Source: Symbiodinium natans
Lineage: Eukaryota > Sar > Dinophyceae > Suessiales > Symbiodiniaceae
NCBI GenBank assembly: GCA_905221605.1
Contig: CAJNDS010000483.1
Coordinates: 62,001 to 126,000 of the forward strand
Direction: 5' to 3'
DNA: 64,000 nt
The notes under the pieces were generated by a model. The model ran no database searches and was not told where the DNA came from. It saw only the letters and a program-made list of their open reading frames with translations. Positions 40,699 through 62,890 of this stretch are shown piece by piece (position 1 is the stretch's first letter; each line of letters begins with the position of its first letter). Made by a program: the position numbers and the translations under genes.

Positions 40699-40757
40699 CT
40701 CCTCCCTACCTCCTCCCTACCTCCTCCCTACCTCCTCCCTACCTCCTCCCTACCTCC
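40699..40757. repeat. 10-bp tandem repeat CTCCCTACCT
   Basis: Five to six perfect copies directly after the decayed hexamer array. Confidence 0.9.
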
Positions 40758-40953: not shown

Positions 40954-41070
40954 GCCCCCCCTTCCCCCCCCCCCCCCTCACCCCTCCCCCCCCCTCACCC
41001 CTCCCCCCTCCCCCCCCCCACCTCCCCCCCCCCCACCTCCCCCCCCCCCCCTCACCCCTTCCCCCCCCAG
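40954..41070. repeat. Poly-C tract with T/CA interruptions
   Basis: About 115 bases of C-runs (5-11 C) split by T, TCA and A; a possible four-stranded (i-motif/G4) former. Confidence 0.9.
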
Positions 41071-41185
41071 CCAGTGCAAGTGGGAGTACAATGGGGAAGT
41101 TGACGCGCTCTGCGGTTGTGGGCCAACTGGACTTGACCCAAAGCTGTTGACAGGCTGTCACACCATTCTCCCAGGCCTCACGGAC

Positions 41186-44100
41186 CTGACTGGGCTTCTC
41201 TTCCTCCTCGTTCTCCTGGCAAAATTTCAGAATTCGGATCGTTTTTCCTGGACCCCAAAGGGGTGCAAAGAGCATGGAGCCTCTCATTCACTCATGAGCT
41301 GAAACAGCAGCCGCTATCCCCTTCATCCGGCTCTGGGAGCCTCCTCATCCTCGGCTTCCTCCTTGATGGCCAGGTAGTACTCAATCGTAAAGGCCTCGGA
41401 ACACTATGCGGGTACAGTGCAAGCACTTGCTGGCTGCTGGCAGCTCAACCACAGCAGGAGTCTGGAGCATCATGGGACCCCAAAAACCCATGAATGCCTT
41501 TGGACTGGCCTTGGTGATTTCGAAGATGATCGCCACGCCGAGGAGATAGAAGGCCCTGGGATCTGAGAAGGATAGATCCAATTTGTTTCATTTCTTCTGC
41601 AGGATTCTGGCACCAGGGAAGCCCAGAGCAATGATTGCTAGAATCACAAGAAACCAATTTTCCGTGCTCGTGTGCAGCTGCATGCAGCTGAAGGGCGGGA
41701 AGACGTACCAAGCAACGTCCCCCCAGGATGAGGCCGCCTGTTCAGAGCTACATTGACAGGGAGAACGACTTGATATGAACAGCTTCGGGCTGAAGGCATA
41801 CAGGATGCTTGCAGAATGCTTACAGAGAGTGGAGAACAGAGGAACCTCACAGGAAAGCAGCAGCTCTTTGTTATTTGAATGTATTTGCCCTGCGCACTTG
41901 CTGCGAGCGCCTGAAGGGCATCCGCATTCTCTGGGACGTACTCACCTGAGGACATTCGAAACGCATCGGCGTGCAGTACATCATCCCACCACGTCAACGC
42001 TGCTGACTTGCGCAGTTACGTGAAGAACATCTAATTGTTCATCGTAGGGGTCTCAAGCCCTGGTCTTCCATTCGCACCAAAACTGCACTCTGAAGATCTG
42101 ACAACACAGGCATATGAGCCCGTGAGCTTATGAGACCCTTGCCCACATGAGCAGGAACAATGCCAAAGTGGTCTTGTTTTTCAGCAAAGGGTCTAAGAAG
42201 CTGCGCGAAGAAGGTGGTGAAGGCCATGGACATGTCGTTGAAATTGAACACATACCTTGGTGGGCATGCCGTTTGCCTTGCAACTTCGGTTCCGTCTTCC
42301 ATTTGGAGCTCCTGCTGCCCTTTGCTCACACCTAACTAAACTCTGCCCTGTCAAGACCTCAGGGCTGCAAGCTCAGATTCGTCATGGTCTACAGGCTCTT
42401 GCCACTGAACTGTCCTTTGGGTCTATTGCTCCAACATCCTTGTTTTGGGAACTAGATTACTATAGACTATAGACTTAGGGGCGATGGAAAATGTCTTACA
42501 GCACAAGAAACTTTGTGCAATCCAAGACTTACTCCTGAACACTCGAATCACCTGTAGCAAACCTTCAAGCAAGAGTTGATGGCCCGAATAGGAGAAGGCC
42601 AGCTGGTAAGGACCTTGAGATTGTAACTCGGTCGCGGCCTTCTGTTACGACACTATTGTCTATTCATATCATGCGAGTCACATGCAGAGAGTTTAGTAAA
42701 CCAAGATAGAGCATCGTGCCAAGCCCAAGGTCAGACTAACCCATTGAGCTGTGACCAAGTCGCAGATGTTTCTTTCCATAATCGAGCTCCTGCATAGCTG
42801 CTCTGGGGAGGCTGAAATAACATAATGGAGAGCGCTTGAGCCGTTGGTGGTAGGCATGCGCAGCTGGGCAGGGCAAACATGAACCAGCAAACTCCCCAAA
42901 TTTCCTTAACATACCGCCTCGAACAGCTTTTGTGATTTTGCCATCGTGTCCAAGATGATGCGTGTGGCTGCGTGTGGTGGGTCCTTCAGAGCTGGCTGAC
43001 CTTCGTACAGGACTCCGCCCCACAGATTCCTCAGTACGCCGTGGCTCAAACTCCCTCTCCCAAACCCTTGGGAGGATCCAACTTGTAGAACCCCCAAATA
43101 GTACCCCCATACCACTTTTAGGGCACCTTAAGGGGATCTACTTTTTGGATCCTCCCAAGGGGTCTGGGCTTGCAGCTGCAACCTCTTGCAGTCCGGCCAC
43201 ATGCTAAGCGCGGAGAAGAAGAAGAGCAAAACGCCCAAGAGCTGAAGAATATCACCAGCCTTAGATGTGGGCATTGGGCATCCTTGTCTTGGTCGTCGCT
43301 GTAGCTACTTTCGTGGAGGGCAAAGGCGGCATTGTCCCGGCTTTTTTGTTTCATGAAGCAGCTGAGAAAGAACCCTCGAAGATCCCTTGAGGCAGTGGCT
43401 GCATTCACCATGCGCGAGATCGTGCGCACCATGAACTGCACTCGTGGGAACTGCTTCAGCTGCTTGACCTCAGAAGACTTCGGCGCTGACGACATTTGCC
43501 CAAGATGTCCTTTTGATGACGTTACTGGCGTTCTGTTCGTTAGGATTCGACACTCCGCCCGCAGGGAGAGCATACTACGCAGGTGCGCAGACTGCAGTCC
43601 AAACATGTCCAAATCCACCACGCGAAGCCGCATGCACCGCTACTGTGCCAACCTCAGGAGGATATAATAACCACATGGCGTTCCCCTGAAAATGAACACC
43701 CCTGCTCCTCGCTGACTTATCCCTCCGGTCTCAGGGCCACACCACGCGAATGAGTCTGAGGAGCCGGAGGATATTGGCATAATGCTTCAGGTCCTTGGGC
43801 TGTACAATACACAATATTCCGTCTGCCCTGGGAGCTTGGATTTCCTTGAAGCTCATCGGGCAAGCATCCACGAAACCAGAAGTGACTTCGCAATGCATGC
43901 CTTGATCCTGCGAACTACTCAGCGACTCTCCTCTTACATCGCTCTGACACCCGTGATTTGGGCTTTAGGCTGCCAGAAGGCCAGCTGGGCATCCGAAGTC
44001 AGCAACTTCGCGTTTAACAATATCATGGACCCACAAATGCAAACATCGGTTCATGCTCACATCTCACATGCCAAGGTTCTGCCTGCACCGTCGCAAACGG

Positions 44101-46381
44101 CAAATAAGGAAGCACGGTCGTCGCTAACAGCAGCCAAGTTGTGAAAAAGTCAAACCTTGCATGTGGACGATGAGCGTAGCTCGCGCGTTTTGTTGGTGAC
44201 GTCACTATGTGCGGGTTGGGTAAGGGTTGGTATGAAATTTTAGCGTTCCGTGTGACTGGCCAAAGCACCATTAGATTCCATATCAGTCTAGTGCTCATGC
44301 TGTCGTGAGTGATTGCCATCGGCAGTCGGATGCCTCAGTGGTACAAACTTCTCAGCCAAATCTGTCGAGGTGCTTGTTGGCCCAAAAGCTGCAGTACTCG
44401 GCCCAGGACTTGACCTGCATGGATGTCGGACAAGGCCGGGTAGCATTCACCGAGCACAAAGCAGTCTGAGGGCCATCGACTGTGTTCTGACTGAGCGCTG
44501 TGCAGACAGCTTGATGATGACCTCACCTGCGCTTGTCTAAACGCTGCAGGGCACAAGCAAGTCGCTGTCAGGCATCAACATAAGATTCCAAACAGATTCC
44601 ACATGATGCTACAAGCTTGTAATCGGCGCTGTTGCGTGCCGTTAACAAGGTCAAAAGAGCTCTGCTGCATTCGTGACGCGTTGGTCAGACCTTATGTCAG
44701 CCTGAACCCCGAGCCCTAAAACCCCAGGGTCCCGGCCAACGTAGGCAAATGCAAAGATGAGGTCCAGGATTCGGAAAGCATCTGGCTGGGGGCCCCAATC
44801 GTTGAGGTTGTAAGCCGACCTTAGGAGCATTGACATTTTGTTCCTCAAAATGAGAAAAACGAATTCTCTGCATGAGGGGAACAAAGAAGGAGCCTTGTAT
44901 CAAATTTCCCCACCAACCCCCCCCCCGCCCCGTGTGGTCCCACTTGATTGCCGTTTGATGGCCACCTGTTGGATACACTATGAACCCAAGAGGCTGCAAG
45001 GCGCCCGTAAAGTCATTCGGCACCACTTGATGACTTGGGTCATTGATTTGTTGTTTAAATTGCCTCCCGATGAGCAGAGCATCAGCCTTCACACCGAGGG
45101 TGGGAAAACGGCGTCTTCGCTCCGGGAAACATGCGCAGTGGGCCGCAATAGGGGGCTTGCGCGAAATTGGCCAAAATGGGCGTCTTCATCATCCCTCCCA
45201 CCGTGTCAAGATGTGCCACACATGCTTACTTCGCCATGTCATGGCTCCCCGCGCACGGCGGACCCCGCCCCTTGAAGAGTCTCAGACAGCGGCTGAAGCA
45301 GCACAAGTACCAGGTTGGCAAGGAGCACCTGGCATGAACGGGCGAGCAGTGGGCATGTCGCAAAACAATGTCTGTTGTGACACCGGCGGCCTCTGAACTC
45401 TGAACTCAGCTACGATCCCCGAATAGCCGCAAAAGGCCCTCTTTGCAATCCGCGCACATTGTTCATGAAGACGTCGAAGGCCGGGAGCTCTTTGGGCTCC
45501 CAAACTTTGTGCCTTCCAAGCTTGCGCTCACGCCAAGCCACGGGGCTCTGAGCTTAGGTGGCGAAGCAGTTGAAGACAGTCTAAACAGTCTAAGCTCATG
45601 GGGTTAGATTCTTATCAGATCGCTACAGTCTATCGCGGTGCCTCAGGGATACAAACCAGTCCTGGTTCCACATCCCGGGCGCGCAGTGCTTTATGAACGA
45701 GTCCTCCAAGCAAGTAGAATGAGCAGACATGTACTCAAGCCAGCACACAGGCACTACTTCGTCATGCATCAACTGAGATAGTGAAATCTCCCCATCGGAC
45801 ACAACATGTTGGCAGGAAATTGAACAGAGCAACAGAGACCAAACCGCAAACCGGTCCTTGGGAGTCGCCCAGACTGGGTTCTGAAAGACTCGGCAAGCGT
45901 CCAGGAACTTCTCCTGTCACGGTATACCGTACAAGAGGGCACACAAGTGTCCGGAGACCCTTGAAGTCAGTGAATTCCCCATCTTTTTCTTTCCCAGCAT
46001 TTGCCAGCTCTACAATGTGCCTCGGTGACGTCGCCAAAGTGCTCGAGCAACAGCTCTGCCTTGCTGCCACGCCAATTGAAGTACATTGTCGTCAGGGGGG
46101 ATGCGCATGAGCAGTCAGATGCTCAGCTTCACACCGTTTCTCGCGCGATTGGGAACATGCCTCAGGGATGTCAAAGGCTGGATATCCCAAAACGATCAAG
46201 GGCTAACCCTGCTACGGCTGCTGCTATTCTTGGAAGAACCAAAAACCTGTACAAACAGCTTTGGTGTGCGGGGGAGGGGAAATCTCTTGGACTTGGCCCA
46301 GCCGCGGGGAGATTTGCCCAAATCCTCCACAAACTCGAGGAAGGTCTCCTCTGGAACTACTCGATGGTCGCTGGAGGCAGC
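41186..46381 (-). CDS. Voltage-gated cation channel, copy A
   Basis: Exons, right to left. 46247-46381: VVPEETFLEFVEDLGKSPRG (cytosolic). 45.8-46.1 kb: further exon(s), frame unsettled. 44723-44867: FVFLILRNKMSMLLRSAYNL then NDWGPQPDAFRILDLIFAFA (S2-S3). 43743-43799: DLKHYANILRLLRLIRV, an S4 voltage sensor with Arg every third or fourth residue. About 43390-43480: VKQLKQFPRVQFMVRTIS (S4-S5). 43183-43259: ILQLLGVLLFFFSALSMWPD (S5). 43001-43029: NLWGGVLYE. About 42190-42257: YVFNFNDMSMAFTTFFAQLL (pore). About 41610-41745: WGDVAWYVFPPFSC. 41342-41395: AFTIEYYLAIKEEAEDEE, the end of S6. 41186-41215: ENEEEEKPSQ. Junction phases agree for 44723-44867 to 43743-43799 and for the last two exons. The order S2-S6 plus the FNFND pore resembles two-pore/CaV-like cation channels of protists; ion selectivity is not predicted. 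Copy B has the same exons in the same order. The N-terminus and some exons are missing. Confidence 0.7.
43064..43162. mobile_element. Foldback/MITE-like element 4
   Basis: The left end CCCTTGGGAGGATCCAA, then CTTGTAGAACCCC, is matched by the reverse complement of the right end, CCCTTGGGAGGATCCAA then AAAGTAGATCCCC. The arms are about 31 bases with four or five mismatches, unit 99 bases, and it sits in an intron of channel copy A. Confidence 0.75.
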
Positions 46382-46423
46382 CTGAATGGATTTCATGAAG
46401 GAGCTATGCTTCTCCAGACTTCC

Positions 46424-46440
46424 CTAAACCCTAAACCTTA
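46424..46440. repeat. Telomere-like CCCTAAA pair
   Basis: Two units of CCCTAAA in tandem, the second slightly altered, just upstream of copy A's first identified exon. Confidence 0.6.
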
Positions 46441-46818
46441 AAGACAGCTGCCTTTCATCCCAGAGTTGGCTTCACGCCGGTGCACCCCCTCGAACTTTGA
46501 ATCTCAGGCTTTCTTCCCCATAGTGCCGCAGAGAGTCTGAGAGAGTCTTGAAAGCACCGTGCATACTTTGCGCCTCTGTGCCAGCGCACTTCCCGAGGCT
46601 TCCGGCTGAGTTTTACATGGTACATGGTACCTGGTGGCCCAGCAGCCATGTTGTAGTACGGGTACGCTTTTGGTGGTGGCTGTGTTGAGAAAGCAACCCA
46701 GCGTATCACTTGGGCAGCAAGAGAACACGAACATGCTGAATGGTCTGAGCTGCATCTGATCCGCCCAAGAAGTCTATAAAGTCTCGACCGGCCTTGCATG
46801 ATAGATTGATAGACCTAC

Positions 46819-48993
46819 CGAATCCCTGCATTGACTGCCTCCGCTGAGGCTTTCCTGTCCAACTCCTGCAGCACACGCCACAAAGCCAGCCGAGCTTTCA
46901 AGTGGGTGTATCAGCAGGGGCCCAAGAAAACCACACAAACATAAGGATCCTACAAACAGGGTTTTTCGGAATCTCACTCAGAGGGGCTCGTAGGATCCTT
47001 GTGTTTTTGTGGTTGTTTGGGCCCCTCATCAGAGTGCCATGAATGTCAAAAGTGGGCATCTGCTCTCTCCGCATTCCCAGCTCGCCCAGCTCCCACGTTC
47101 CTCTTCTGAGCCTTTCAGGTACGCCGCCACGAAAGCGTCGATGACTAGATTGAGCAGCCTGCGGATCTCTGGTGAAATTTTCCTAGCCCATGTCTCGGAA
47201 ACAAGCATGCAGAGGTAGTAACAATGAAGCACAGCCCTGGAATGCCCGGACCCTCTTCTGGGAATGGTGGCCGCCATATACACAATATAATTGTAATGAA
47301 GTATTCATGCCAGATCATTAGACTTGCCTCAACAAGACAGACCCTGAGCCCTGGCCCCAAACCCTTTTCTGGGTAGTGTGGTTCCTTTCCCGCTGGGGCC
47401 CCGCACAAGATCTGACCGATCACCAGGAAGATCAGCCAGAAGACGCCTCTGCACAGTCAATGCATGTCAGGGCTTCCCTAAACCCTAAATCCTAAACCCT
47501 AAACCCTAAACCCCAAACAAAATCTTCTGCTCGCGTTCTCGCGCCTGAAAGTCGGTAGGTGAAGAAGGACGGCAGGAAGTTGCTCACGAAGCCTTCGCCT
47601 CGGGTTCTCGTTGGGAGTGGGACAGTGAGCATCCAAAAAACAAGGCTAAACAACTCAAAACTCTGAACGCCAGACCGCCAAAATCGCCATCCCAAGAGAC
47701 CCCCGAAACCAGGACGTGAACAAGGCAGAAGCGCACAGACAACCCAACAAGCCACCCCAATTCCCGAAAGCTGCCGAGACACCAATGCCGGCAACGAACA
47801 AGGAGTAGGTGGCCTGGGTTACAAGGCCTAGAGTTTACTGCAGAGGGCATGCTGAAAAAGATTGCGCAAGCCTCTCATGCCAAGCATGTTGAAATATCCA
47901 TGTCTTGACTCTTGACTTCTTTACTATCTCCATCTCGCAGCATGGTTTTGAGCACTGCAGAAGCGAACATAGACGAATAAATTTACACATGTGCGCTTTA
48001 AATACGCCTAACCCATCATCAGATACAGCCAGCTTCGCCCTGGTCCCCTGAGTGTTGTCCGTGCTCTGCAGCCAAGACACCTCCCTCAGTGTTGATAAGC
48101 CCTGTTCAGGCAGCTGGCAAAGCATCACAAGTCTCTCCCACCAGGCTGGGACTGAGCTTGAGGTCTAAACTCAGCTGGGTCCTCACAAGTCCAAGTGCCA
48201 AGCCCCGCCTTGTTGGCAGGGACGATCTCCTGTCCGGACAAGTGTTCAAGCACGTTTCGTTAGGGCTTCGAGTCGATGCACGGCTCCTCGTCTTCCTTGA
48301 ATGCGGGGGCGTTCAAGTCCTTGAAGATGATGACCGTAACCCATGCGAAGAACATCCTCAAACACACATCAGGCTTGGCATGATGTCTGGAAACAGCCCC
48401 AAAAGTGCGGCTCCCACACGAAAAGCACAAGATAGCCTTTCATACATTCCGGAGCCTACGTCGTGCAACAACGGCTCAAGGATGGAGACACCAGATGCCA
48501 CCAAGTGGCACCGTACCAACGAAGAAAACTGCAACTGACCTTCACTGCCGGGTCTCCACAAGTTGCTGAGCCACGGAACGGACAAAGAGCAGCCCAAATA
48601 AATCTAAACAACAGTGTCTGCAGTGCCATGCCGGCTGCGAACACAGATCTGTACCCTGCTGATGCAGGGAAGTCGCGCGAACTCTCCGATCATCCGCCTC
48701 GGCACGTGTGCGCAGGTAGTTTCCAAAGGCGAGCCACATTCACCGCACAGTACTGGTGTTGCTCCTACTTGGAGTAGCTGGAGGCTGCTTCAGCTTGGCT
48801 TGATGTTCCAGGTTGCCACATCTCGTGTGAAAATGTGTTTCCGGCGGTGCAAGAACATCCGACCCCAGCATCCACCCGACCGTCCACACCCGCCCAGTCT
48901 GCAGCCAGAGCAGCTTGTTGAAAATGAGGGTGTAGACTCGCTGCACACCCGGCAGTATGAAGAGAAGGCCCGTCCTGAAAAATGCTGGGTTGT

Positions 48994-49028
<35 letters not shown>

Positions 49029-51544
49029 AGCCGCAGGTGACAAAGCTAAGCTGATCGAAATGTTCAGAGACATTCTCTGGCGGCATAAAGCTTTGCCGAT
49101 GTTGGGGTCACCACGCACTGCAAACATGACGAGGAGCCAGTCCATGCGATTCTTGGATTCTGCTATGCACTTCTGCCCTTACCCAAGCCAAGAGGCCTGA
49201 AAATCCAGGTGAATCGAATAGGCATCCGAGCGAAGGTGAAGACGAGCCTCGTGAGAAGCGGCCGTATGGCTGGCTGGCTCAACGCAGTGTGAGAGTGTTA
49301 AGTTTCACTCGTGGAACATTGCAGTAGAGGTGACAAGGGGCGGAGAATATCCAGACAGTAAGACAGTAAGACCACAGGACAGCAACGTAGGTTTGTGTGA
49401 GTGAGATCTGAAACGGATCGAGGGCTTGTTGATTCTATCCACCCGAACGAACGCAAAGATCTGGCTCAACGCCTCTTCACTCTGTGATATCCTGACAGAC
49501 TGATCAATCCCCTCGACAAACCAAAAGAAGCTGGACATCTCACTCTGAATGACCGGTCGGTGTCCGACAAGGAGCGTGTCGAGCATGCTACCGACGGCCA
49601 TCAGCAAGCCCGCGACAACCAAACCTTCGCTTGGATAGGCTGGCATGCACCAGCGAGACCCGTCCGAATCTAATGCGCTTCTGTTCTTGGATTTATTGTT
49701 GCTAATCACCCTATGACGTTGCTATGTTTACGAATCACCTGATGATATTCTGTACTGTAGGAGCTGGCTGAAAGAGCCACGGTTCAATGTCGACCAGTCT
49801 ACATCCAGATGCCTTTGTGGCCTTAGCTTCTGCTACCTCATTTAGGGTTCGCTTATTGGTTTCTTAGAGTTGAAATAAGAGCAGAGTAACTGTAGTGTTA
49901 GCCCTAGCCCACGCGGGGAGACCCCATCGGCTTAGCAGGCCGACGCCTTAGCCACTCGACCAAAGTGTCTTCTGGTACTAAAACCTGACGACTTACCGCT
50001 TTGAAGACGACTGAGAACGAGAGCCGTGAGTACCTTCCGAGCACAAAGCAAGTTGTAGCGCAAACTATACTGTAGAACCCTACACTTATAACTACCCATG
50101 ACCCTTCAAGTATGAGATCTTGTACAACCTCTCCTATCCTGTTCTATCGAAATCAGAGAGCGACGGGCAAATTGACAAGCTAGCGTCTTGACTTGTACGA
50201 TCGCACCTCCACGGAGTACCATGTGCCATAGGAAGCATTATGTCTCCCATGAACCCGGGTACTTGATAAACATCTCGAACCCTCCACGCCGATGGAAAGG
50301 TGAGACCCGGATGCACGCAACCTCCATGTTTCTACATGTTGGGCGTGTACTGTGCAGACGTTCCCTCAGCCCTACCCGGTTGTGGCACATTGAGCTGCAC
50401 CAGGCCACTGTGGTCGAAGTACTGCGTGCCAATCGCCCGGAAGTGCTGCTGGTCCAGGTTTAAGTTCAGCAGAAACTGCCCAGGCACGTGGTTTGGCTTC
50501 CACTGGAACATTGGGAGCTGACATCTTGAAGATGTGGCTGGGGGTGTTCTGTTAAAGCAGGGTGCCAGCTACCTTTCATTTACGTGAATTCCTGATAGTA
50601 GGACCCCAAGCAATGGAACTGCACTTCCTTCGATGCCCGCGCAAAGGACAAGCCGAACTAGTCCGTTCCCGTTCCAAGATTAAGCATCGTCCTGGCAGCC
50701 GATCCACTGCAGGAACCCTAATGCTAGGCTTAAGAATTCGGATTGCCCTATGCCCTCTGGCCACGAGTGGCATTTCTGTGCTATTGGAACGCGACTTGCG
50801 CACGACCCTGGCAAGGCATCTGTCACTCATTTTCCCCTATCATAAGCATCATCCTGCCGGGCAAAGACATTGGTGACTGAGAAGCCTCAGAATGCTGCAA
50901 TAGGCCACCCTCACCCCACGTGAGGGTCAAACTTGCACCCAACTCTCACGCTCAGGTCGCACCTTCCGAAGGATGATGATCTCGATCACAAGCTCGATGA
51001 TGAGCCCAACGCCAGGTGGTATGTACCAGATGTTCGACAGATACCTCGGAGCGAATGTCTCCGAATGTCTTCACATTGATCTATACCCCCCTTAGAACCT
51101 TAATAAACATACTATTTTTAATGTCCTCTTGGGATTTATATAAACAAAAATGCAAAATGGGATATAGTGATTCCATAGGGGCTCCTGATGCTGCTGAGCC
51201 ACGGGTTGCCACCGTTGGGCACGTGGCACCACTCCCCAGGCGGAACCCAGCTCCAAATGTCCTGCCACAGCTCTTCGGGAGTCAATATTCTTATTGCTAT
51301 TATGATTATTATTATTATTATTATTCTGTGTGTGTTTTTCTTCTAGCTTTGGAAGTCGAAAGTAAGCCTAGCACCCGGCTCAAGTGCACCCATTACCGTC
51401 GCGTTACATCCGGCATCAGTGCTGCTACGACTTTGACCTCTCGCTGCAATACCAGGGATTGCAAGGCGGCTCCTGCGTTGGTGATCGCTCGTGGCACCAG
51501 GGTGGCACTTCGCAAAACGTCAGGATGACCAGCGCGACAATGGC
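46819..51544 (-). CDS. Voltage-gated cation channel-like gene, copy C
   Basis: Right to left. 51438-51544, after GTCGCAG: AIVALVILTFCEVPPWCHER then a Cys/Pro-rich loop, donor GTCAAAG; this resembles the S1 helix of protist two-pore/CaV-like channels. 51.2 kb: an exon with unsettled frame. 50963-51044: YLSNIWYIPPGVGLIIELVI then EIIILRK, donor GTGCGA (S2-like). 50376-50502: WKPNHVPGQFLLNLNLDQQH then FRAIGTQYFDHSGLVQLNVP, donor GTAGGG, bounded by good splice sites, role unknown. Hydrophobic pieces at about 49105-49170 (NRMDWLLVMFAV) and 48270-48365 (LRMFFAWVTVIIF). About 47395-47450: GVFWLIFLVIGQILC, aligning with WGDVAW-L/Y-I/V-F in copies A and B. About 47098-47158: LLNLVIDAFVAAYLKGSEEE, the S6 end. 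46819-46865: ELDRKASAEAVNAGI, donor GTAGGT (cytosolic). I could not find its S4. It may be a complete diverged gene or a decaying copy. Confidence 0.5.
46916..47026. mobile_element. Foldback/MITE-like element 5
   Basis: The left end AGGGGCCCAAGAAAACCACA, with AAGGATCCTAC after a short gap, pairs with the right end (reverse complement AGGGGCCCAAACAACCACAA, then AAGGATCCTAC). The arms are about 38 bases with small gaps and the unit is 111 bases. It shares the GGATCC core with element 4. Confidence 0.75.
47475..47514. repeat. Interstitial telomere-like repeat (CCCTAAA)n
   Basis: About five units on the plus strand (CCCTAAA with one CCTAAAT and one CCCCAAA), inside channel copy C. Confidence 0.85.
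48994..49025. repeat. Poly-G run (about 32 G)
   Basis: Uninterrupted G-run; on the minus (coding) strand it is poly-C. Its length is unreliable in any assembly. Confidence 0.9.
49905..49970 (-). tRNA. tRNA-Ser(GCU)-like sequence, probably a truncated pseudogene
   Basis: The minus strand has TTGGTCGAGTGGCTAAGGC (a class II D-arm/A-box), the anticodon arm TCGGC-CTGCTAA-GCCGA with anticodon GCT, and a Ser-type long variable arm TGGGGTCTCCCCG. After that the T-arm fails: no GGTTCRANNCC B-box follows and no 3' acceptor strand pairs with the 5' AGACACT. It is either a pseudogene or the tRNA-derived head of a SINE. On the coding strand it lies inside channel copy C. Confidence 0.55.
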
Positions 51545-51857
51545 CTGCGACATGCACATGCAGAAAAGTTACATTGCCGATCAGGACTTCTCTAGGCTCT
51601 GGACCATAGTCTGACATCGTCTATGCCTATGCTTAAACAAAGCATGTGGCTTCCGGACAAGCTGGCCAGGCATCCACGTCACTTCAAAGCTGGGCATAAA
51701 GTTGATCCTTACGTGCTTACCTTCTAGACGGTGAAAGCCAGAGCCTTGTAGTAGAGCTTGTTGTGGCGCATCACCTAAGCTCACATGGCGCGCGCTGGAA
51801 CGAAGCAGCGCCTGCTTGAAATCCAAAAAACGCTCAAGCCTTGGAAAATACATGCAG

Positions 51858-51858
<1 letters not shown>

Positions 51859-51945
<87 letters not shown>

Positions 51946-51957
51946 GCAACAACAACA
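51859..51957. repeat. (CAA)n microsatellite
   Basis: About 33 CAA units with two point changes near the right end. The poly-Gln, poly-Thr and poly-Cys frames are artefacts. Confidence 0.95.
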
Positions 51958-51975
51958 AGGTTCAGCCGTAAAGGA

Positions 51976-52841
51976 CAAACAACAAACAAGTACAAACAAA
52001 CAAACAAACAAACAAACAAACAAACAAACAAACAAACAAACAAACAAACAAACAAACAAACAAACAAGCAAGCAAGCAAGCAAGCAAACAAACAACAAAC
52101 AACAAACAACAGACAAACAAGCAACAAACAAGCAACAAACGAGCAACAAACAAGCAACAAACAAGCAACAAACAAGCAGCAGACAAGCAACTAACAAGCA
52201 ACAAACTAGCAACAAACTAGCAACAACGAAGCAACAACTAAACAAACAAACAAACAAACAAACAAACATACAAACAAACAAACAAACAAACAAACAAACA
52301 ACAAACTAGCAACAAACTAGTAACAAACTAGCAACAAACTAGCAACAAACTAGCAACAACGAAGCAACGACTAAACAAACAAACAAACAAACAAACAAAC
52401 AAAGAAACAAACAAACAAACAAACAAACAAACAAACAACAAACTAGCAACAAACTAGTAACAAACTAGCAACAAAAAAAGCAACAAACAAGCAACAAACA
52501 AGCAACAGACAAACAACAGACAAACAACAAACAAGCAACAGACAAACAAACACACAGAACACACAAACAGAACAAGCAAACAGAACAAACAACAAACAGA
52601 ACAAACAAACAGAACAAACAAGCAACAAACAAGCAACAAACAAGCAACAAACAAGCAACAAACAGGCAACAAACAGGCAACAAACAAGCAAACAACCAAC
52701 CAACAAACAAACAACAAACAAGCAACCAACAAGCCAACCAACAAACAAACAACAAACAAACAACAAACATACAAACAAACAACAAACAAACAAACAAACA
52801 AACAAAAAAACAAACAAACAAACAAGCAAGCAACAAACGGT
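51976..52841. repeat. Composite (CAAA)n and 11-bp (CAAGCAACAAA)n array
   Basis: About 860 bases of C/A-only sequence: CAAA blocks, CAAG blocks, an 11-base unit CAAGCAACAAA and its variant CTAGCAACAAA. A block with CTAGCAACAAA, AACGAAGCAAC and AACTAAACAAAC occurs at about 52200-52300 and again at about 52320-52430, so a segment of about 125 bases was duplicated. Confidence 0.9.
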
Positions 52842-53849
52842 TGCTTTTTCGCTTCTGCTTGGATCCAGGAACCTTGAAGTGCTGCTGCCGCGCCGCAGCA
52901 GTGTCCTCGGGATACCTCTGAAGCTTCACAGAGGCAGCTAACTGCACAGTGGAGTCAGGCTGTGGTCCGAGCTGTTTAGCACGGTTAGATCGACTCTCTC
53001 ACGTCCGCTCTCTCAAGAAACCCCCACGCGGCCCTAGTTACACCGAAACATCTAGCACTGCAAGCGCCCGAGTCTCCGATACGCAGTGAGTTCATACCAA
53101 AAGGTGCGAAATCAATCCTGCGACCTACCGACGGGACAGCCTAAACTCGGCAACGCTGTGCGACAGTTACTGAACGACCTGCGCACCTTGCCCACTCAGT
53201 GTGGAAGATCGCATTTTCAAACTGCCAGGCTGCCTTGCACATGCTGCAACCGCATCTGAAGCAAGCGGCTACTTCGACTGGCAAAACTACCGAAATACCG
53301 AATCAGCAAAGCCCATAGCTACACTCCAACATATGAGGGCCGAAAGCTATGCTTGGCAACCTTATTGATAATGGCGTGCCACCTTTACATACCAGCCGCC
53401 CGGCAGACCAACAGTCAAAAGAACTTTCTACACCCTCCCAAAACGAAAGTTGCCCCAAAGATGGCGACACGGTCGATTGCGTTGCAGCTGAGCCTTGGCA
53501 ATTCGTTCATGCGAGAGCGCCTCGGTTGATCATGGTAGCTCTTGGGCTGATCCAGGGCTCAAGCTACACAAATGGGTGCTTCGGAAGAGGTCCACAATCC
53601 ATGCCACAGAGCTGGGTAGTCATCGACCTTCTTCTTCTCCAAAGCTTCTTCATAAGCCTCATGGTTCGAGTCATTGCAGGGCTACAGGTCACACCTAAGT
53701 GCTGCTTTGGGCCGTAAGGACAAGCAAGGATTCAGATTGGATTGCACCACTTTGAACGTGGACTTCTTGCGGAAGGGATGAAGAGTAACATGGGCCGCAC
53801 GTACCAGAGATGTCCCGCACATTTTACAGATAAGCACCCTAATCTTCCT
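52842..53849. other. No gene recognised; one possible exon
   Basis: Near 52850-52950 the minus strand reads QLAASVKLQRYPEDTAAARQ then QHFKVPGSKQKRKSNR, a basic, protein-like frame without fixed splice sites. Elsewhere only short frames are seen. Confidence 0.3.
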
Positions 53850-56800
53850 AAACACCTCAGCCGGAAGGAGCCCAGCCTCCTTCAACAACTTTGGGAAGTT
53901 CGGCTCATCCTGACAGGGCATCCGGGCTCAGGCATGTGAGAACGACACAGGTATGGCTTGGGGTTCGTGACCCTTGCTTCAGTTGCGCTCTTTGCGTGCT
54001 TGCTGGCCTGCGTGACGTAGTGCACCTGCATGTCTCTTTTCTCAAACTTCTCCTGGACCTGCGCGGGACATGCTGCGAGTCGCACAAGAGGCATGTGCGT
54101 CCCGGCACGTCCAGGCGATATCCCATTTGTGCTGAATGTGCCCCAGTGACCTAAAGTCTCCCAGCAACCCCTTCGGCTACATGAAGGAAGCCTGCCACGA
54201 TCATTCACGCAAATCCCCTGCCATTTTGGGATCGTCAAGCATTGGAGCTGAGCCTCTTCGAAGAATTCATCCTGGGTTGAAAAGTGGCAGCTTGCCTTCT
54301 CATGCCTTCTCTACTTTAAGCACCTTGACCCGTGACTTGCTGAGCATGCCGGGGATGTGCAGATACTGCTACCGAGCATTCTGGGCAGGATCAACCTGGA
54401 TAATCCTTCACGCTCGCGACCTGACCCGGATCCAAACAGTGCCGCTGCTGACCAAGCTTCGATGTCGAAGCCTTTGCTGGACTTGCCCTCTTCGTGCTCC
54501 TGCAAAACACTTTCATCACTGTTTCACTCTTTTGTTCTTCCTTTTCTTCTTCCTGCAGGGTTTGGGGTCCAGGGCCCTTCCTCCGCGCACCCAAGGGTGT
54601 CAGCGATTCGAAGCTGGAGTCTTTCTAGTTTTTCTTCCGAGGGGCTTGAGGATGGTAAACCCAGCGCACGCGCGCGGGCGCGCCTTCGGGAGAGACTCCC
54701 TCCCTCCCTCCCTCCCTCCCTCCCGCGCCCTCCCTCTCTCGCTCTCCTCGACGCTCCTGACCTCCGGGCGCCGGGCGTGCCCTCCATTCACGGTCGTGTG
54801 AGTGCCAACGGCTTCTATTATGCGCACACATGCACACCTGCAGTTCCAGCTAGCAAGGTTCGAGGTGCACCCGGTTCTCCCTTTTGCAGAGTGGATCGCA
54901 AAACATCATTCATAATCTTGGTACTGGGTAGTTGGTAGCGGGCCAATCGATGTTAAAGACACACGGGCTCCTCCTCTCCATGACCATGCTCCGCATGACC
55001 ATGTTCAGCGTGTTCGGCAGGTCCGTGGGCATTCTCGTGCCCCTCCTGCAATCTATCAAGCTTTGAGAATGGAATTCCAGCACACAGCTTCCCAACAACC
55101 GCCAGATGATAACCCGACACTCGTACAATCTCATCATGCGCAGCCAATCGGCCCTTGTGCATTATGCACAGCCTCTCAGCCCTGAATCACTGATTGGGTC
55201 CTGTAGGCCTCGAACACCACAAGCCCAAAGCCCCAAACTAGAGACTTGCTCTATCTCCACATTGGGGGCCCTGTTCATGCAAACCTTAGAGCATAGAGAC
55301 GCTGCTTGCTCCAGTCCAGCATTGGCGAAGGACTCGAAGCCCCAAACACAGCCTAAATCCAAAAGACTTGCGCTCTTCGAGGGAGAGCCTCTTCCTCCTC
55401 CTCCTCCTCTTCTTCTTCGCCCTGGTTGACCATCCAGGGGCCAGCTTGCGTGGATGTAAAGCACAAGCGAGAGGGGTCACATGAGATGTTTTTTTACCGT
55501 GTAGATGCGAGGCTTGCAAACACCAACGTAGCCTCTTCTTTCTCGTTTTCCTGCACCAGCTGGACTGAAGGAATGTAGGATATCCAGGGCTCGCTTGAAT
55601 TGCATGCCGTCAAGCAGTCAACCGGTCGCGTGCAAAGATATGCTAGTTGACGACAGTTCTGACTCCCAGAAGCTACGTTTAACACTCACTTTAGGATATT
55701 ACAGGTGATTGGACTCGCACATGCCTCTCGGAGCTCGATGTAGGCTTCAACCGTGAAGGCCAAGAGGATCTCAAACATAATGGCCACCTGCCGGCGAGCT
55801 CCGTGAATCCGAGTAGTGCCAAGCGTGCCATGACTGGCCATCGCACATGGGGGCCCGGCTCCCAGAAAGTAGAAAATTGGGAAGATCAACCAAGCAACAT
55901 CACCCCACCTCGGTAAAGGTGGTCTGATCGCTTGATGGATCCATGGGCGCACGCTCTCAGAATGCGCAAGGGCATGGCAGAGAGTTCCACTAGTGAGTGT
56001 GAGTCTGGTGTGACGCGCACACTACAAGTCGACCCTGAATCCATGAAGTGGCTCCCCATTCCAATAAGCCTTCCCATTCCAATAAGCCTTCCTCGAAAAA
56101 AACACAAGGCCACACTATATCATCCCTTAAAGGGTATATAAAGGGGGATATAGGGCCCTATATATGTAGATAGATATATATATATATATACCCTACAAGG
56201 GATTATGTCCCTTCTACGTCCCTGAAAGGCAGCAGACTTGGTCTCATCTGGGGCCTGAGATCAACTCCTGGGGCCGCGACTCCGAAGCGGCCTCCAGGGC
56301 CTGGGGAGAGCACGGATACGAACTTCTATGAGCGCAGCTCTAGACCTGCGCTCATAGCGAAGACTATATGGACACAGAGAGATACATGTATATAAATGTA
56401 TGTGTATATATATATACATAAATATATATATATATATATGTATACATTTCTATATATATATATATGTGAAGTGGGGTTATGATAATGACTAGGGAAGCCC
56501 TCTCGGAGCCCTCAGACCGTCGCGCCCTTCTTGCGTGCGACGACATGTGGCAACTCGGAGTTTAATTGAGTTCTTCTCGTGGCGCGGAGAGCTCGGCAAG
56601 TCAGGCACTTTTTGAAAGGCCGACAACAAGGCGCGGGCACGGGTACGGGCACATGTTGTGGGCACCAGCTTGGCAGCAGCCGACAGCTAATATAATATGA
56701 TTCATGACTCACAACCCAACTCCCATGCGCTTCCCTTCGGCCTCAGCGTTGGTGGGAACATACCTTGGCCCATGCACCAGCTTACTAAGTTACAAAGTTC

Positions 56801-59800
56801 AGCCACCACATTGTTCAGCTTTCTGTTCAGCGAACACCAGTTGCCCAGGGCCATGGCTCACAGAGAAGCTGCGTAAAGAAGAGGGCGAAAGCCTCACGGT
56901 CTGGGCATGCATTTAGTGTGACAATCAGACGTCACTAGCCTGTTCTCGGCACGATCCTGTAAGAGAAACGACGCGACAGCTACCAGCATCTGTTCAGCGA
57001 CTAGTTCTCTGAATTGTTGTCCATGATCGGGTCTCTGCTAGCACCCGGCCTTTAAACTTCGGGCACCCCCAGAAGCCCATCATGTATGGAGGGCTCGAAC
57101 GGCCGAGATCGAGCTCCCAGCCATGATAGCATCGTTAAAGTTGAAGACGAACCAGTGCTTCTCCTGATGCTGTTGTCAAGTTGTTCAGCGCCTCAGCTAA
57201 TGATAAATACGTTGTCTATTCAATCCTTCGGCAGATTCGCCAGCGCAGCCAACAGTGGTGTTTCTCACCACCCGGCCTCGTACTCCGTGTGCTTGAGATC
57301 TGGATTGCCCTGCATGACACCCGTGCTTAGGTTCTACATGGCGTCAAACTGTTACTTGCCTCGGTCGTCTGTGGTGCTACTCAGGAGCTGTTCTGAGAAG
57401 TCAAGCAAGCTCGCCTTGTACAGAACACCACCAAACAGGTTGACGCCGAGAGTCATAAAGAAGAACACCACCTTGCAGCATGTCAGAGTTTCACGCCTTC
57501 AGTTGGAGCCTTGCGACAATACTGGTAGCATTGACTTTGGACTGGCAGGGTGCCACGGTGAAGGCATCCAGTGATTACTGGGTGGGTTGTGTCGAAATAA
57601 CAAACTTGTAGACCCTAAACTCGTGTTTGAGCACACTCACCCAACCGTGCCAAGCGGCGCAGCCAAGCATGAGGAGGATGCTGCCTGTAAGTCTCAGCAG
57701 CTGTCTGGTTCAGAATTTCGGGATGTCTGAAACTGCCCGAAAGGGATGATTGCAGACTGGCTAGGGATCGCTACCCCATAGTGCGCGACAACCTTTAAGA
57801 AGCTCAGCCAGCCAGCCAGCCCTCAATGTTCAATCTCAATAACTTAGACAAACAATCCATGTGCCCCGTTGGAACCAGCTGGGCACCTGCTGCAGAAACC
57901 ATTTTGGAGACTGCATTGGCTAAGAACCTGGCGGGCGGAGGCGTTAAGCTACGACCTTACGACTGCTACAGGGTAGCTGTGACGACGGACGGAGGCTCAG
58001 CTGGAGGTTTGGCTGCGTTCTGTGCAATCAGTACACCGGGCTCTTACCACGTGCGTTGCAGCAAGGCACCATGGCTTATAAAAGCGTCAAAGATCTACGA
58101 AGTATACCCTGGAATCCAAAGTGGCAGAGGGGTGCATTCCCTCGAGCTTCCAAGTGCCACACTGCACGGAGCGAAGCGATTTCAACTGCTTGACCACCTC
58201 AAGACTTGTCAGGACAGCTTCAAAGTCTAGGAATCTAGGGTCCACAGCTGCCATGCGCAGTCCTATCCTAGCCAACTGAGAAAGTGCTCCTATGCGCAAG
58301 TTCGATATTTCCTTCTGAGCTTCAGACACGCAGCAGGCGCAGCAGTCGCAGGATGTTCGCGTACTGCTTTAGATCAAACGGCATAACCTCAGGCGACAAG
58401 TGCAGCTACGGCACCGCCTACAGTTTGATATGGCCATAGCAGAACATCCCATGGATGTCTGAAGACTACAAAACAGCTTGGCTGTTTTCACCGCCTGGTG
58501 GCGGCCTTTTCAAATCTTATGATTGGCATGCAAAAGTGCACAGAAACCCTTGGAAGCTCATCATCTTCGAGCTGAGCCCTGCGACGTAGACGAGGCCCCG
58601 GCGCTGTTTGGTAAGTACGGCAACACGCTTGTGAACAGCAACAGGAAGGTCGTGAAGAAATCGAAGCCTCAAAGCCAAAGGAAGGTCGGGTTTCTCTGCA
58701 TATCTGCCATCTTTTGCATAGACATCGGCTTAGACATGCTTAGTAAGGTACACTTAACACCACATCTGCGGCCCACGCGGTTCGCAGCGGAGCGCCAATA
58801 CGCGTCCCAGGAGCGCACCGTCACCTTGACTGCGACCTTGGCCAGCCCTTTCAAGTTGACTCTGGTTAGTATTATTACTAAGGGGTTTATAAGGGGGCCA
58901 CAAAGTACTATTAATATGGGCTTCTTTACTCCCAAGGCAGAAGCCGAGCTCTGGCGTACGCAGCACACTGGGCACGAGGGCTGTCACTTCACAAACACTG
59001 GTTCAAAGGTTATATTAAAGCTAAGGCCCCAAGTAGACCTATAGAACCTGTTCAACTCTGCAGATGCAGTGCCGGACCTCGCCCAAATACACGAAGGAGA
59101 AGACTAACTCGACCTTCGATGGGGCGAACTGCTTGCAATCACCAGATCTGCTCTACACGGGGCGCACCTTGCGGACCAATGTGACAATCAAATGGACTAG
59201 CATAGGCCGACTGTCCTGTTTCACACTGTAAGGGCCAAGCATATCCGGTCCAAACCTGGGCGGAAACGAAGGCGTCGCGGCCACTACCACTGATGAATAA
59301 ATCGCTGGCGATTGAGAGTCCGATCCCCGCGATGTGAAAAGTGCTTAGCAGAAACGGTGAATTCTCGGGCACCGCTAGACCTCGCCATCGATTCTTTTGT
59401 TGGCATTCTCACTTCTCCCGGATGTCACATGTGAAATGAGTGCTGGCCTCGGCGGTCATATATTCAGGCCCCCCAGCCACTCAGTTTTCTTGTGAACATA
59501 TGCTCACACACAGCGCTCACATAAACACACATTGTATAGATGATAGATAGACATTTCATACATAATTACACAGCCTGAACATGGGGCGCCTCTGCACCCA
59601 GGCTCATTGGGCGCCGTTTTTTCTCCGGGCGCAACTCATTGCCCACGAAAGTGCTACCAAAAGCACATGGTAGACATGATTGTCACTAAAAAACTCTTAC
59701 TAGTAGTACCTTTTTCTTCATGGTAACGTAGCAGAACCTAAGCTTCGCCAAGCTGACTGCGCTTCACGGTTGCGAAAGTAAAACAAGAATGCAGGGCGTC

Positions 59801-60060
59801 CACTGCAGTGGGTTCCCTGAGTACCTGTTTCTTAAGAATCCTATACGAGGCATCGATAAGGGGGCGCTAACTTAGAGCAACTCGCACAAGTGCGGAAAGG
59901 ACCAGCAACTGCGCTCGCACTTCACAGATTTCGGGCCTCCCGGGCTGTTGCAACTGCAGCCACGGAACTGGTGGGTCCCCCCAGTCGTTGAGGTTGTAGG
60001 CCGACCTCAAACCACAGGCACAGCCAGACTTCCAAAAGCCTGCTGCGAGCTTCGCATAGA
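53850..60060 (-). CDS. Voltage-gated cation channel, copy B
   Basis: Right to left. About 59970-60050: LRSAYNLNDWGDP (S2-S3 start, shared with copy A). 58328-58387: MPFDLKQYANILRLLRLLR, the S4 sensor. About 58165-58225: EVVKQLKSLRSVQ (S4-S5). 57646-57684: SILLMLGCAAWH (S5). 57415-57471: VVFFFMTLGVNLFGGVLYK, GC donor. About 57115-57163: EKHWFVFNFNDAIMAG (pore). About 55865-55908: WGDVAWLIFPIFYFLG. 55725-55787: VAIMFEILLAFTVEAYIELR, then E, with a GC donor (S6). 55533-55550: ENEKEE. 54965-55045: EGHENAHGPAEHAEHGHAEH then GHGEEEP, a His/Glu-rich cytosolic insert with donor GTGTGT. 54421-54499: EHEEGKSSKGFDIEAWSAAA then LFGSGS. About 53975-54058: VQEKFEKRDMQVHYVTQASK. About 53850-53909: DEPNFPKLLKEAGLLPAEVF. 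The exon order matches copy A, so the two are paralogues or repeated domains. The tail exons after S6 could in principle begin another gene. A foldback element (56122-56203) sits in one intron. Confidence 0.7.
54695..54725. repeat. (CTCC)n microsatellite
   Basis: About seven perfect CTCC units within an intron of copy B. Confidence 0.9.
56122..56203. mobile_element. Foldback/MITE-like element 6 (TA-rich)
   Basis: The left end ATCCCTTAAAGGGTATATA pairs with the right end (reverse complement ATCCCTTGTAGGGTATATA): 17 of 19 positions. The interior is (TA)n with a palindromic TAGGGCCCTA. Unit 82 bases, in an intron of copy B. Confidence 0.75.
56393..56466. repeat. (TA)n with TATG/TATC variants
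   Basis: About 74 bases of TA-rich dinucleotide sequence, an AT-rich island in otherwise GC-balanced DNA. Confidence 0.85.
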
Positions 60061-62890
60061 GATTCAAAGGCTCTCCTAGCCACAGATGTCATGTAGTGTA
60101 GCTGGATCCATAAAATACTGTACGGTTACACATGCTGCCACAGTGGCTCGACCAGAACAAGCACCTCGGCACTGAATCACACTGCATCACCCTACGGCCC
60201 TCCGTGCAACACTGGATTGAGGCTTGGTGGCCGCCTGGCAGTCGGAGTGAGAGACCATTACTACGGATAGGTATCAGCCAAATGTGAGCCTGCAACAACA
60301 TTTTGTCGTACCCTGTGACCCTTTGAGAAGCAGATGGTGGGCTCTGAAGCATCGCCCAAGCCCGTGGGATGGGGAGGCCCAAGGAGGTATCCTGGGATGT
60401 TCTTGAGCCGCTGGTGTGACCCGACTCTAAAGCCAGGCGCCAGATTCAGAAGCAGCACGCTGTTCATGAGCTTGTCGAAGTCGGGGGTCTCCTGACAAAA
60501 CATGGACATCCGGAGACACGAGTGGCCTCAGTAGGTCATGCACTAAATCTGGGCAAGTGCAGACTATAGGGTATGATTGCAGCAATACACATCGCCCCAG
60601 TAGCCTCCGGCTCCGTCACATAGTGCTTCAGCCTGCAGACAACATGTATCTACGGCACCGCAGATAGGTAAACTCCGACTGAAACTGCGAAAGCCAATGC
60701 AGCCCCAAAAGTGTCGAAAGCATCGCGCAGATGTAAGCCGAGCAGCATCTGGCCAAACGGCGAGCGAGACTCTGGCTCCTCCACGCGAAAGCGCCCTTCG
60801 ACTGTGACTGTAGCGAACTAAAGTGAGTTTATGATCCACCGCTATCATCATCACCACGAGCCGTGATGCTCAAGACCCCTCCATCCCACAGGCGACGCGG
60901 ACGAGTCCTGGGAAAGCAGCCTCGCACACACAAGAACTCCAAAGGAAGGGGTGGCACATTCATTCATTTGCGCGATGTACCTTTTTGAAGGACATTGCAA
61001 GATGCAGGGTTTGGTGAGCTGTACTGCGACCCTTCGGCAGCATGCGCGAACATGTGGTGCAAAGGCTATTTCAGTGACTCAGGGACCCTCGAGGGGATGA
61101 ACCGCTCGCAAGGAGGCAAGTAAGGCCAAGCTGCAGATCGCTTTCAAGCAGGAGAGATGCTTTGCAGAAGTTGTCCTTGGAAACCTGAGGACACCAAGCC
61201 CAGAGTGCACTAACACGAGATGGACTCTAACCTGACACTGACACTCATGGAAGCCACAATGCCAAAAGGCAGCCCTAGGACTAAGAACGTTCTCTCTCCT
61301 CTTCTTCTTCTCCTTCTTATCCTTCTTCTCCTTCTCCTTCTCCTTCTCCTTCTCCTTCTCCTTCTCCTTCTCCTTCTTGTTCGTCTTCTTCTCCTTCTTC
61401 TTGTCGCGCACCCGTACAAGTTCTTTGCTACTCGGGGGAGAGGATCTTGCCCTTGCCCTTTCTTCCCGGAAAAAGCACAGACTGAGTTGGCTCCAAGCTG
61501 GCACCAAGCACCAAGCACAGAAAAGTTCTCACCCAAACCAAACAGAGACCTCCTGTCCCGCCTCGGGGTGTGAGAGTACGTGTGGACTTCCCCCCCCCCC
61601 CCCGACAACAAGCAGCGGTGTTGCAGTTGCTGCGGCATACTCCGGCTCATTAGAGGGACATGATCAGCAGGATTCAACTTGAGACGACAGCGAGCAGGTA
61701 CACGCTAGGAGGCATGTCCATTGTCTTTGCTGCTCTGGGTCTGTCACTGGTTGCGCGCACACTTCAGCAAGGCTGCAGGGGTTGCGGCAGCGTTGAGGGC
61801 TAAGATTTAGAGTGCAGGATGCATGTAGTGAATCTGTGAAAGCACCAGTAGCAGTTTCGAGCTTAGGGGTCCGGCGCCATGTTCTCACCGGGGACTTACA
61901 AGCTCGCTTCTTGATCGGCATAGCTAGTATCCGACACGAGCACCGCACCCTACAAGCCACCTGCGGATTCTCGCACCGGGTTTGTTTCCCTATGATTCTG
62001 CTCGCATGACCTCCACACAAGAGCTCCCTCGATTGCAGCGCAGAGGACTGACCGCTTGCTCTCTGCTCATGTTTCTTCTTCTTCCTCCTCCTCCTCCTCT
62101 TCTTCTTCTTCTTCTTATTCGTGTGCTTCTTCTTCTTCTTCTTATTCTTCTTCTTCTTATTCTTCTTCTTCTTCTTCTTCTTCTTCTTCTTCTTCTTCTT
62201 CTTCTTCTTCTTCTTCTTCTTCTTCTTCTTCTTCTTCTTCTTCTTCTTCTTCTTCTTCTTCTTCTTCTTTGTCTTCGTCTTCGTCTTCTTCTTCTTCTTA
62301 TTCTTCTTCTTCTTCTTCTTCTACTTCTGCACCCCTCTCCCTCTCTCCCTCTCTCTCACTTTCTGATGACCGCGGATCCAGAGTTCTGTTGGCATTTTTG
62401 GCAAGTGGCACCACCAAGCTCATCGTACCTGAGACGGTGGCCCAGTGATATCACTGTGTTGCACACAACGGTCGGCGCTCGCATTAAGGAGGTCTCTTTA
62501 TCGTCAAGCCAGTCCTCATGAGCCAAGCTGCAAGGCGCTCGCGAACTCCTTGGGCACGAACCGCATCGCCGGAGACCTTTGGAAGACAACACCCATCAGC
62601 TGTCCACCAATGACACGCTGAAGCCGTGCTGTTAGCCAATGGGCTTTAAGGGGCCCAACAGCATACCAGCGGTGTACACGTTTACTGCAACAAAGGTCAG
62701 ACAGGCTGAGTCGGATGGCAGCTGCCAACAGAAGTAGCAGAGCAAAGCACGATGAACATTGCAAAGACAGCTCCTATTTCCTGCAGCTCCCAATCATTCC
62801 CCATGCTCGCCTGCTGAAAACATTCACGAACTCCAAGAATAGGTCCTGCACAATGGTGATTGGGGCTAGCTGCGGTAGCTGGGGTGTCGT
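60061..62890 (-). CDS. Channel-like fragments D (incomplete paralogue)
   Basis: Three minus-strand pieces resemble parts of the channel copies to the left. About 62812-62890: LPQLAPITIVQDLFLEFVNV, comparable with the proline-then-hydrophobic start of copy C's S2 exon or with FLEFV in copy A's first exon. About 60650-60760: RDAFDTFGAALAFAVSVGVY, aligning with DAFRILDLIFAFAYV of copy A. From 60491 after TTTTGTCAG: ETPDFDKLMNSVLLLNLAPG, aligning with DEPNFPKLLKEAGLLPAEVF of copy B. There is no room between the last two for S4, the pore and S6, so D looks like a deleted or scrambled copy, or these are extra exons of copy B. The evidence is similarity by eye only. Confidence 0.35.
61297..61395. 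repeat. (CTTCTC)n/(CTT)n tract
   Basis: About 95 bases of CTTCTC hexamers flanked by CTTCTT; GAGAAG-type on the minus (coding) strand. Confidence 0.9.
62070..62332. repeat. (CTT)n / (GAA)n microsatellite
   Basis: About 85 CTT/TTC units, interrupted by TAT, GTC and TCC near both ends. On the coding strand of the neighbouring genes it is a GAA expansion-type repeat. Confidence 0.95.

Follow-up and report, generated by a model that had tools for sequence, protein, structure and literature searches.

The window analyzed here, a 64,000-nucleotide (nt) stretch of the dinoflagellate Symbiodinium natans (bases 62,001–126,000 of contig C483, which measures 129,006 bp in a 759-Mb assembly), carries most of a channel gene on its minus strand. 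Taken as a whole, the evidence is very probably best explained by a single gene for a four-domain channel that arose by head-to-tail doubling of a two-domain two-pore channel (TPC), with its domains in the order I-II-I-II. The gene is real, intact and misannotated; its exons and the single frame that they form across three domains are certain enough. The window would hold the 3' three quarters of this gene, and its product would be a four-domain, 24-transmembrane (24-TM) cation channel. In S. natans, three domains and the end of a fourth lie in one frame; all four domains are present in the open reading frames (ORFs) of 16 relatives. The product is predicted to be a voltage-gated cation channel, probably permeable to Ca2+ and resident in an internal membrane.

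A first-pass annotation of this DNA had described voltage-gated channel copies (among them A, B and C) at 41,186–62,890 and read them either as a tandem paralog array or as one giant four-domain channel. The motifs that it quoted are all on the minus strand and run in one direction. Exons of copies A and B match each other in BLASTP (81% over 21 aa for the S4 exon; 86% over 14 aa for the RSAYNLNDWG exon), and hand-spliced A and B score 25.5 and 36.3 bits against Ion_trans, where the Pfam gathering threshold of 25 is barely passed by A. The lack of an Ion_trans match, which the first-pass annotation had named as refuting, is thus not observed. In the PDB, hand-spliced A by itself matched no channel at E ≤ 1, its sole match being an unrelated protein at E 0.08. 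Copy C, also proposed as a channel copy, is a complete third domain. The array is contradicted by the exons themselves, which belong to one gene with B, C and A in one frame. The giant channel is supported by that open frame, by the four-domain homologous ORFs and by the placement of the first domain at the end of C483 and on a second contig, but only three of its domains are in the window. The proposed extent was too narrow, as the gene reaches a stop codon at 39,270–39,268 in one direction and 66,331, past the window, in the other.

Gene model and the submitted TPC1

We modeled the gene with a spliced protein-to-DNA aligner that was written for this analysis and permits GT, GC and GA donors, using as guides a relative with a long ORF (P0048) and the protein submitted for this contig (P0021). 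The resulting model (alignment score 5,212) has 86 exons totaling 3,738 nt and runs from 66,331 to 39,271, where TGA follows, with no stops or frameshifts. Its exons have a median size of 42 nt (range 9–83), and its translation is 87% identical to P0048. Over the whole model, including the few introns past the window end, the 85 donors comprise 54 GC, 18 GT and 13 GA, counts that depend on the penalties applied (GT 0, GC 3, GA 5), which disfavor the observed GC excess. Acceptors are AG in 85/85 introns and AG/G in 83/85. Shuffle controls covered linker and domain queries against the 64,350–60,440 stretch only; in that stretch the real linker queries (n = 4) scored 90–105 versus 44–81 for shuffled linker or domain queries. 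The features of the model are as follows (window positions).

39268..64000, minus strand: window part of the putative four-domain TPC gene, 84 of 86 modeled exons (spliced alignment with P0048 and P0021 as guides)
66,331–66,060, minus strand: two upstream-most modeled exons, within 2.3 kb past the window end (spliced alignment)
63375..64000, minus strand: window part of a WD40-bearing intron of 2,685 bp, 66,059–63,375 (spliced model)
60605..63374, minus strand: linker of domains 1–2; exons 63374–63347, 63221–63170, 62845–62811, 62576–62532, 62428–62410, 61184–61135, 60920–60908, 60778–60747 and 60632–60605 (spliced model)
55725..60491, minus strand: domain 2 (copy B), TPC domain-II type, S1–S6 (spliced to P0023 and P0048)
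58328..58387, minus strand: S4 exon of domain 2, MPFDLKQYANILRLLRLLRV (spliced model and BLASTP)
56756..56868, minus strand: filter of domain 2, LLCEYVP, intron-split (model and aligned homologs)
53494..55550, minus strand: linker of domains 2–3, including the internal methionine (Met) at 54,031 (spliced model)
47101..53502, minus strand: domain 3 (copy C), TPC domain-I type, S1–S6 (identical to P0021)
47590..47789, minus strand: filter of domain 3, GIGEGF, intron-split (model and aligned homologs)
45458..46865, minus strand: linker of domains 3–4, about 119 aa; the last exon holds the start of domain 4
41341..45481, minus strand: domain 4 (copy A), TPC domain-II type, S1–S6 (identical to P0021)
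43743..43793, minus strand: S4 exon of domain 4, DLKHYANILRLLRLIRV (spliced alignment)
41934..42200, minus strand: filter of domain 4, LLSEYVP, intron-split (model and aligned homologs)
39268..41215, minus strand: C-terminal tail and stop; exons 41215–41177, 40026–40018, 39636–39595, 39505–39437 and 39333–39271
39,270–39,268, minus strand: stop codon TGA (spliced alignment)

The protein submitted from the same contig as 'TPC1 [Symbiodinium natans]' (P0021, NCBI/UniRef; 794 aa) is about half a protein. It aligned in 47 exons to residue 736, overrunning the last exon by a few residues, and its tail adds four more; from 54,031 onward the translated model is identical to it at 794/794 residues. 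The Met at which it starts lies within the domain 2–3 linker, in an exon that stays open in frame farther upstream. This Met is not conserved among the relatives compared, which read RDLQVHY (P0048), RGQVVHY (P0049) and QDQVVHY (P0052) around this position. Furthermore, P0023 (EukProt g23527.t1) continues through the annotated start from another channel domain. A half-gene B standing beside a full gene C-A was dropped as a model once P0023 and the long homologous ORFs had been found.

No fourth domain was found within 41,186–62,890, where the first-pass annotation had implied one; the exons at 63.4–60.6 kb are the domain 1–2 linker, and the missing first domain lies at the end of C483 and on a second contig, C384. 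Of domain 1, the S6 exon is at 66,331 on C483, past the window edge; the minus strand of C384 (5,129–567) carries the exons as far as the filter, heading to the contig start. An in-frame Met at C384:5183 opens MTEKNRAFLRSTTPLLADISSRNRKATVVK and is the likely start of the S. natans protein. A single ORF of P0048 spans both sides of the join between the contigs, and the S. natans protein likely has four domains. Long simple repeats occupy introns of the gene (40,070–41,068, 51,858–52,838, 61,301–61,402, 62,073–62,328 and 63,500–64,000) and also the start of C384, and perhaps it is these repeats that broke the assembly inside domain 1.

Several placements at this end of the gene were rejected. 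C384:8532–8514 as a first exon is taken to be a chance 19-nt piece, and domain-I queries within 64,350–60,440 scored 66 and 68, against 52–81 for shuffles. The exons at 62.8–62.5 kb, once read as S1 and the S1–S2 loop, are domain 1–2 linker in homologs. A three-domain channel starting at Met 62,941 was abandoned once the S6 of domain 1 had been located at 66,331.

The 2,685-bp intron also holds, on the same strand, an intronless WD40-repeat ORF of 432 aa (65,649–64,354, minus strand; L009:354–1649) with five WD40 stretches (Pfam). This nested ORF might be a retroposed gene; the exact pattern used found no spliced-leader remnant at it. Its position within the intron excluded it as an upstream neighbor bounding the channel gene.

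Domain types and relatives

Hidden Markov models (HMMs) built here located a domain II at residues 139–389 of the translated model, a domain I at 493–797 and a domain II at 917–1167, preceded at residue 1 by the end of a domain I (the last 21 HMM positions, at only 13 bits). Copies B, C and A are thus domains 2, 3 and 4, matched over all HMM positions (381 bits, 251/251; 473 bits, 305/305; and 390.6 bits, 251/251, respectively). Domains 1 and 3 are of the TPC domain-I type and domains 2 and 4 of the domain-II type. A profile of related TPC sequences matched Arabidopsis TPC1 (AtTPC1) nearly end to end (E 1e-75), and the TPC ancestry of the halves is certain enough at the sequence level. The first-pass annotation missed this family: the gene encodes a doubled TPC and not a canonical Cav/Nav channel. 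Its motifs are also placed more exactly. RSAYNLNDWG lies in the S1–S2 loop, as homologs show (an S2–S3 position was rejected), FNFND leads into the pore helix and S6 ends with AFT(I/V)E.

A 1,180-aa query retrieved 55 proteins at E ≤ 1e-6 among the 7,995 candidates with the most words in common with it. Of the 55, 16 carry the complete I-II-I-II series and are about 1,500–1,800 aa long (P0050 without its very start). The first domain is cut in P0048 and P0066 and missing in P0053; P0021, P0022, P0024 and P0025 are I-II halves or look so, and two gene predictions (P0023 and P0067) read II-I. P0067 (NCBI, named TPC1B) continues after its channel domains with sequence that resembles a retrotransposon by eye, and is probably a fused gene prediction. 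The matches also include nine two-domain TPCs and 21 other multi-domain channels, largely Cav/Nav from animals. Those TPC-type matches that carry a species name belong to S. natans and Effrenium voratum, the latter with a 1,501-aa protein (P0052) predicted as one four-domain protein on a 418-kb contig.

The long ORFs come from JGI, Logan, EukProt and NCBI. All 19 (P0048–P0066) cross the domain 2–3 junction in one ORF, with 94–257 aa between domain hits, a range that includes a few domain-I starts called late. In 16 of them, ORFs of 3.5–5.4 kb lie within contigs of 3.7–5.7 kb; such short contigs would not be genomic if the genes are cut up as in S. natans.

In the set used, the closest sequences outside the four-domain group are relatives with the same domain types but only two domains each (the 16 used below: P0029–P0034, P0036, P0038–P0040, P0042, P0043 and P0068–P0071). 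The search of the S. natans genome for a two-domain TPC yielded only one spliced piece of a second TPC gene, of this type (C2003:209177–209302, L021; 114 aa from five exons), which scored best with P0029 among three queries. As exons are searched for one at a time in the genome and their median size here is 42 nt, further gene copies may be missed.

According to the available text of PMC6259924, TPCs are two-domain channels and, standing between channels of one and of four domains, a model intermediate. The S. natans protein resembles AtTPC1 (5e1j/7fhk) and human TPC2 (8ouo) in the types and order of domains I and II, the fold of the modeled half, the charge pattern of the domain-II S4 and an N-terminal di-leucine-like motif (MTEKNRAFLRSTTPLL in S. 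natans). However, those channels have two domains per chain and this one likely has four; since a standard TPC has exactly two 6-TM domains per chain, we file the protein as TPC-derived. The diatom TPCL, compared by its description in the accessible part of PMC11085791, is also a divergent TPC, with an acidic residue in filter II (VND), no EF-hands, a di-leucine motif and a vacuolar membrane location, yet has two domains. Gene-doubled channels of other families in the same organism group likewise oligomerize internally, with two repeats instead of four.

Pore, voltage sensing and evolution

In the 16 four-domain proteins, the pore loops end in (T/S)(G/D)(E/D)(Y/F) in domain 1, (C/T/L)EY in domain 2, (E/D)GF in domain 3 and (S/C/G)E(Y/F) in domain 4, and every loop has an acidic residue in 16/16. 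LCEY and LSEY stand in place of the VNN/MGN-type filter II of TPCs; in the profile alignment, the M-G-N of AtTPC1 is opposite C-E-Y, with S-E-Y in domain 4. One acidic residue each in TGE, CEY, GEG and SEY would predict a Ca2+-preferring pore, whereas the filters of plant and animal TPCs are neutral. The two-domain relatives have an acidic filter in domain I (16/16) and in domain II (15/16, the exception being RAY in P0029), and the acidic filter is therefore probably older than the doubling. One chain is predicted to do the work of two TPC subunits by folding into a single pseudo-tetrameric pore.

Domains 2 and 4 are most likely the voltage sensors, with an S4 of the form R-x-x-R-x-x-R-x-x-K. 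The corresponding residues of P0021 (R567, R570, R573 and K576) are invariant in a 23-row alignment, as expected by sequence of a voltage-sensing domain-II S4. In domains 1 and 3, the S4 stretches carry just two arginines, set far apart. A search with one regular expression detected a canonical EF-hand loop in 0/16 four-domain versus 7/16 two-domain proteins, and none was seen in the translated domain 1–2 linker of S. natans. Pfam likewise reported no EF-hand at E ≤ 0.1 in P0049, P0052, P0054 or P0021, including the I-II linker where plant and animal TPCs carry it. Loss of the canonical loop would predict weak or no direct gating by cytosolic Ca2+. A loose pattern for PLL/PLI-type N-terminal motifs matched 13/16 four-domain proteins (13/15 of those with an N-terminus; P0059 and P0060 had no match and P0050 is cut short) versus 3/16 two-domain proteins. 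Plant TPC1 requires an N-terminal di-leucine motif for targeting to the tonoplast, and the diatom TPCL has a similar one, as given in the available text of PMC11085791. The PLL motif would suggest a vacuole-type membrane.

We built a tree from 57 halves, of which 19 are N-halves, 22 are C-halves and 16 are two-domain TPCs (555 columns). Two-domain entries were chosen with both domains nearly whole; P0021, P0022 and P0025 were labeled C-halves beforehand, domain 2 only represents P0048, P0053 and P0066 on the N side, and P0024, P0026–P0028, P0035, P0037, P0041 and P0044–P0047 were left out as partial. The C-halves form a single clade (support 100) and the N-halves two groups (support 100 and 96), with the same 19 proteins split identically in both halves. 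The halves therefore appear to co-evolve. The branch between the four-domain and two-domain sets bears ambiguous labels after rerooting (69 and 100 printed). These groupings fit, without proving, a single doubling that preceded the separation of the two groups, and co-evolution as one protein thereafter. The steps proposed would be a head-to-tail doubling of a two-domain TPC gene and an in-frame fusion of the copies.

Weighing the explanations and what the gene may mean

A tandem array, with B in one TPC gene and C-A forming a separate two-domain TPC1 gene, is the arrangement that the submitted annotation implies: the 794-aa protein is C-A plus a short N-terminal stretch, begins with a Met and is reproduced by the spliced model. 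It is nonetheless improbable, as reading on in frame from B past that Met meets no stop, the Met is unconserved in P0048, P0049 and P0052, all 19 long ORFs span the junction and the E. voratum gene is predicted as one protein. It is less probable still that the four-domain ORFs are read-through products, polycistronic transcripts or assembly chimeras of neighboring TPC genes. Most of the long ORFs do come from JGI or Logan contigs, and P0023 and P0067 show that faulty gene predictions occur in the TPC-type family. Against this, the ORFs come from four sources (JGI, Logan, EukProt and NCBI), the domain order is the same in 16/16, the four-domain ORFs are colinear with the exons in the S. natans genome and the groups of N- and C-halves agree.

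An ordinary four-domain Cav/Nav-type channel (FVCC) would share four Ion_trans domains per chain, found here in the relatives, and an acidic residue in each pore loop, which resembles the EEEE locus of Cav/Nav/NALCN. Draft B alone had Cav1.2 as its best PDB match (E 2.6e-9). Bit scores and structure-comparison Z favor TPC over FVCC: by profiles and folds, the four domains are not closer to FVCC, and the domain-I HMM reports only 1/21 of the other multi-domain channels, at 21 bits. The domain 3–4 linker of about 119 aa also departs from the short III-IV linker of FVCC (53–57 aa in the available text of PMC6259924). We consider this identity very unlikely. A decaying copy or pseudogene, which the highly fragmented exons, repeat-rich introns and nested ORF could suggest, is hardly credible in a model with 0 stops or frameshifts in 3,738 nt, AG at 85/85 acceptors, 87% identity to P0048 and conserved filter and S4 residues.

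Several observations weigh against a doubled, four-domain TPC. The annotation submitted for S. natans covers the second half only. About 23 domain-1 residues are unplaced between C384 and C483, and the join between these contigs rests on the homologs. The domain-II HMM matches 21/21 of the other multi-domain channels, and domain II alone therefore cannot separate the families; the confidence of the AlphaFold2 model is moderate (pLDDT 76.1, pTM 0.69). As the TPCs of other eukaryotes and FVCC are outside the tree, independence from FVCC is judged from profiles and folds. In the alignment, domain 3 has its acidic residue shifted by one position relative to domain 1, and the four carboxylates may therefore not form a regular ring. 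Finally, the best tree unites one N group with the C-halves (support 95) and the N-halves are not one clade, although the approximately unbiased test does not reject a single clade of N-halves (0.439).

Elsewhere on the minus strand of the window, ORFs at 14,202–15,980 carry RCC1 repeats (PF13540), the upstream one with a weak ubiquitin-like stretch below the cut-off. A 278-aa ORF at 29,423–30,259 (minus strand) has a stretch resembling what we take to be the sugar-nucleotide site of UDP-glycosyltransferases.

Within the TPC family, the four-domain form is a new architectural variant. No description of one was found in the accessible text of the open literature (PMC7312350, PMC7576140, PMC6259924, PMC8045281, PMC11085791 and PMC5824947), preprints and most subscription papers aside, and the architecture may have been noted elsewhere under a different name. 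The 1,501-aa E. voratum protein is newly recognized as a four-domain channel. With two-domain relatives surviving beside it, an I-II-I-II TPC opens the doubling step to testing in a living lineage, including whether covalent fusion lets the halves diverge and alters gating, with an acidic filter that predates it. We modestly favor the broader proposal of a second, independent origin of 24-TM four-domain channels, in which a dinoflagellate TPC whose filter was acidic beforehand doubled and fused to give a Cav-like Ca2+ channel that is voltage-gated, sits in an internal membrane and has an acidic residue in each of its four pore loops. If true, this origin would repeat the two-to-four-domain step proposed for the Cav/Nav ancestor. 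If the predicted location holds, the protein would be a candidate channel for vacuolar Ca2+ signaling in relatives of coral symbionts.

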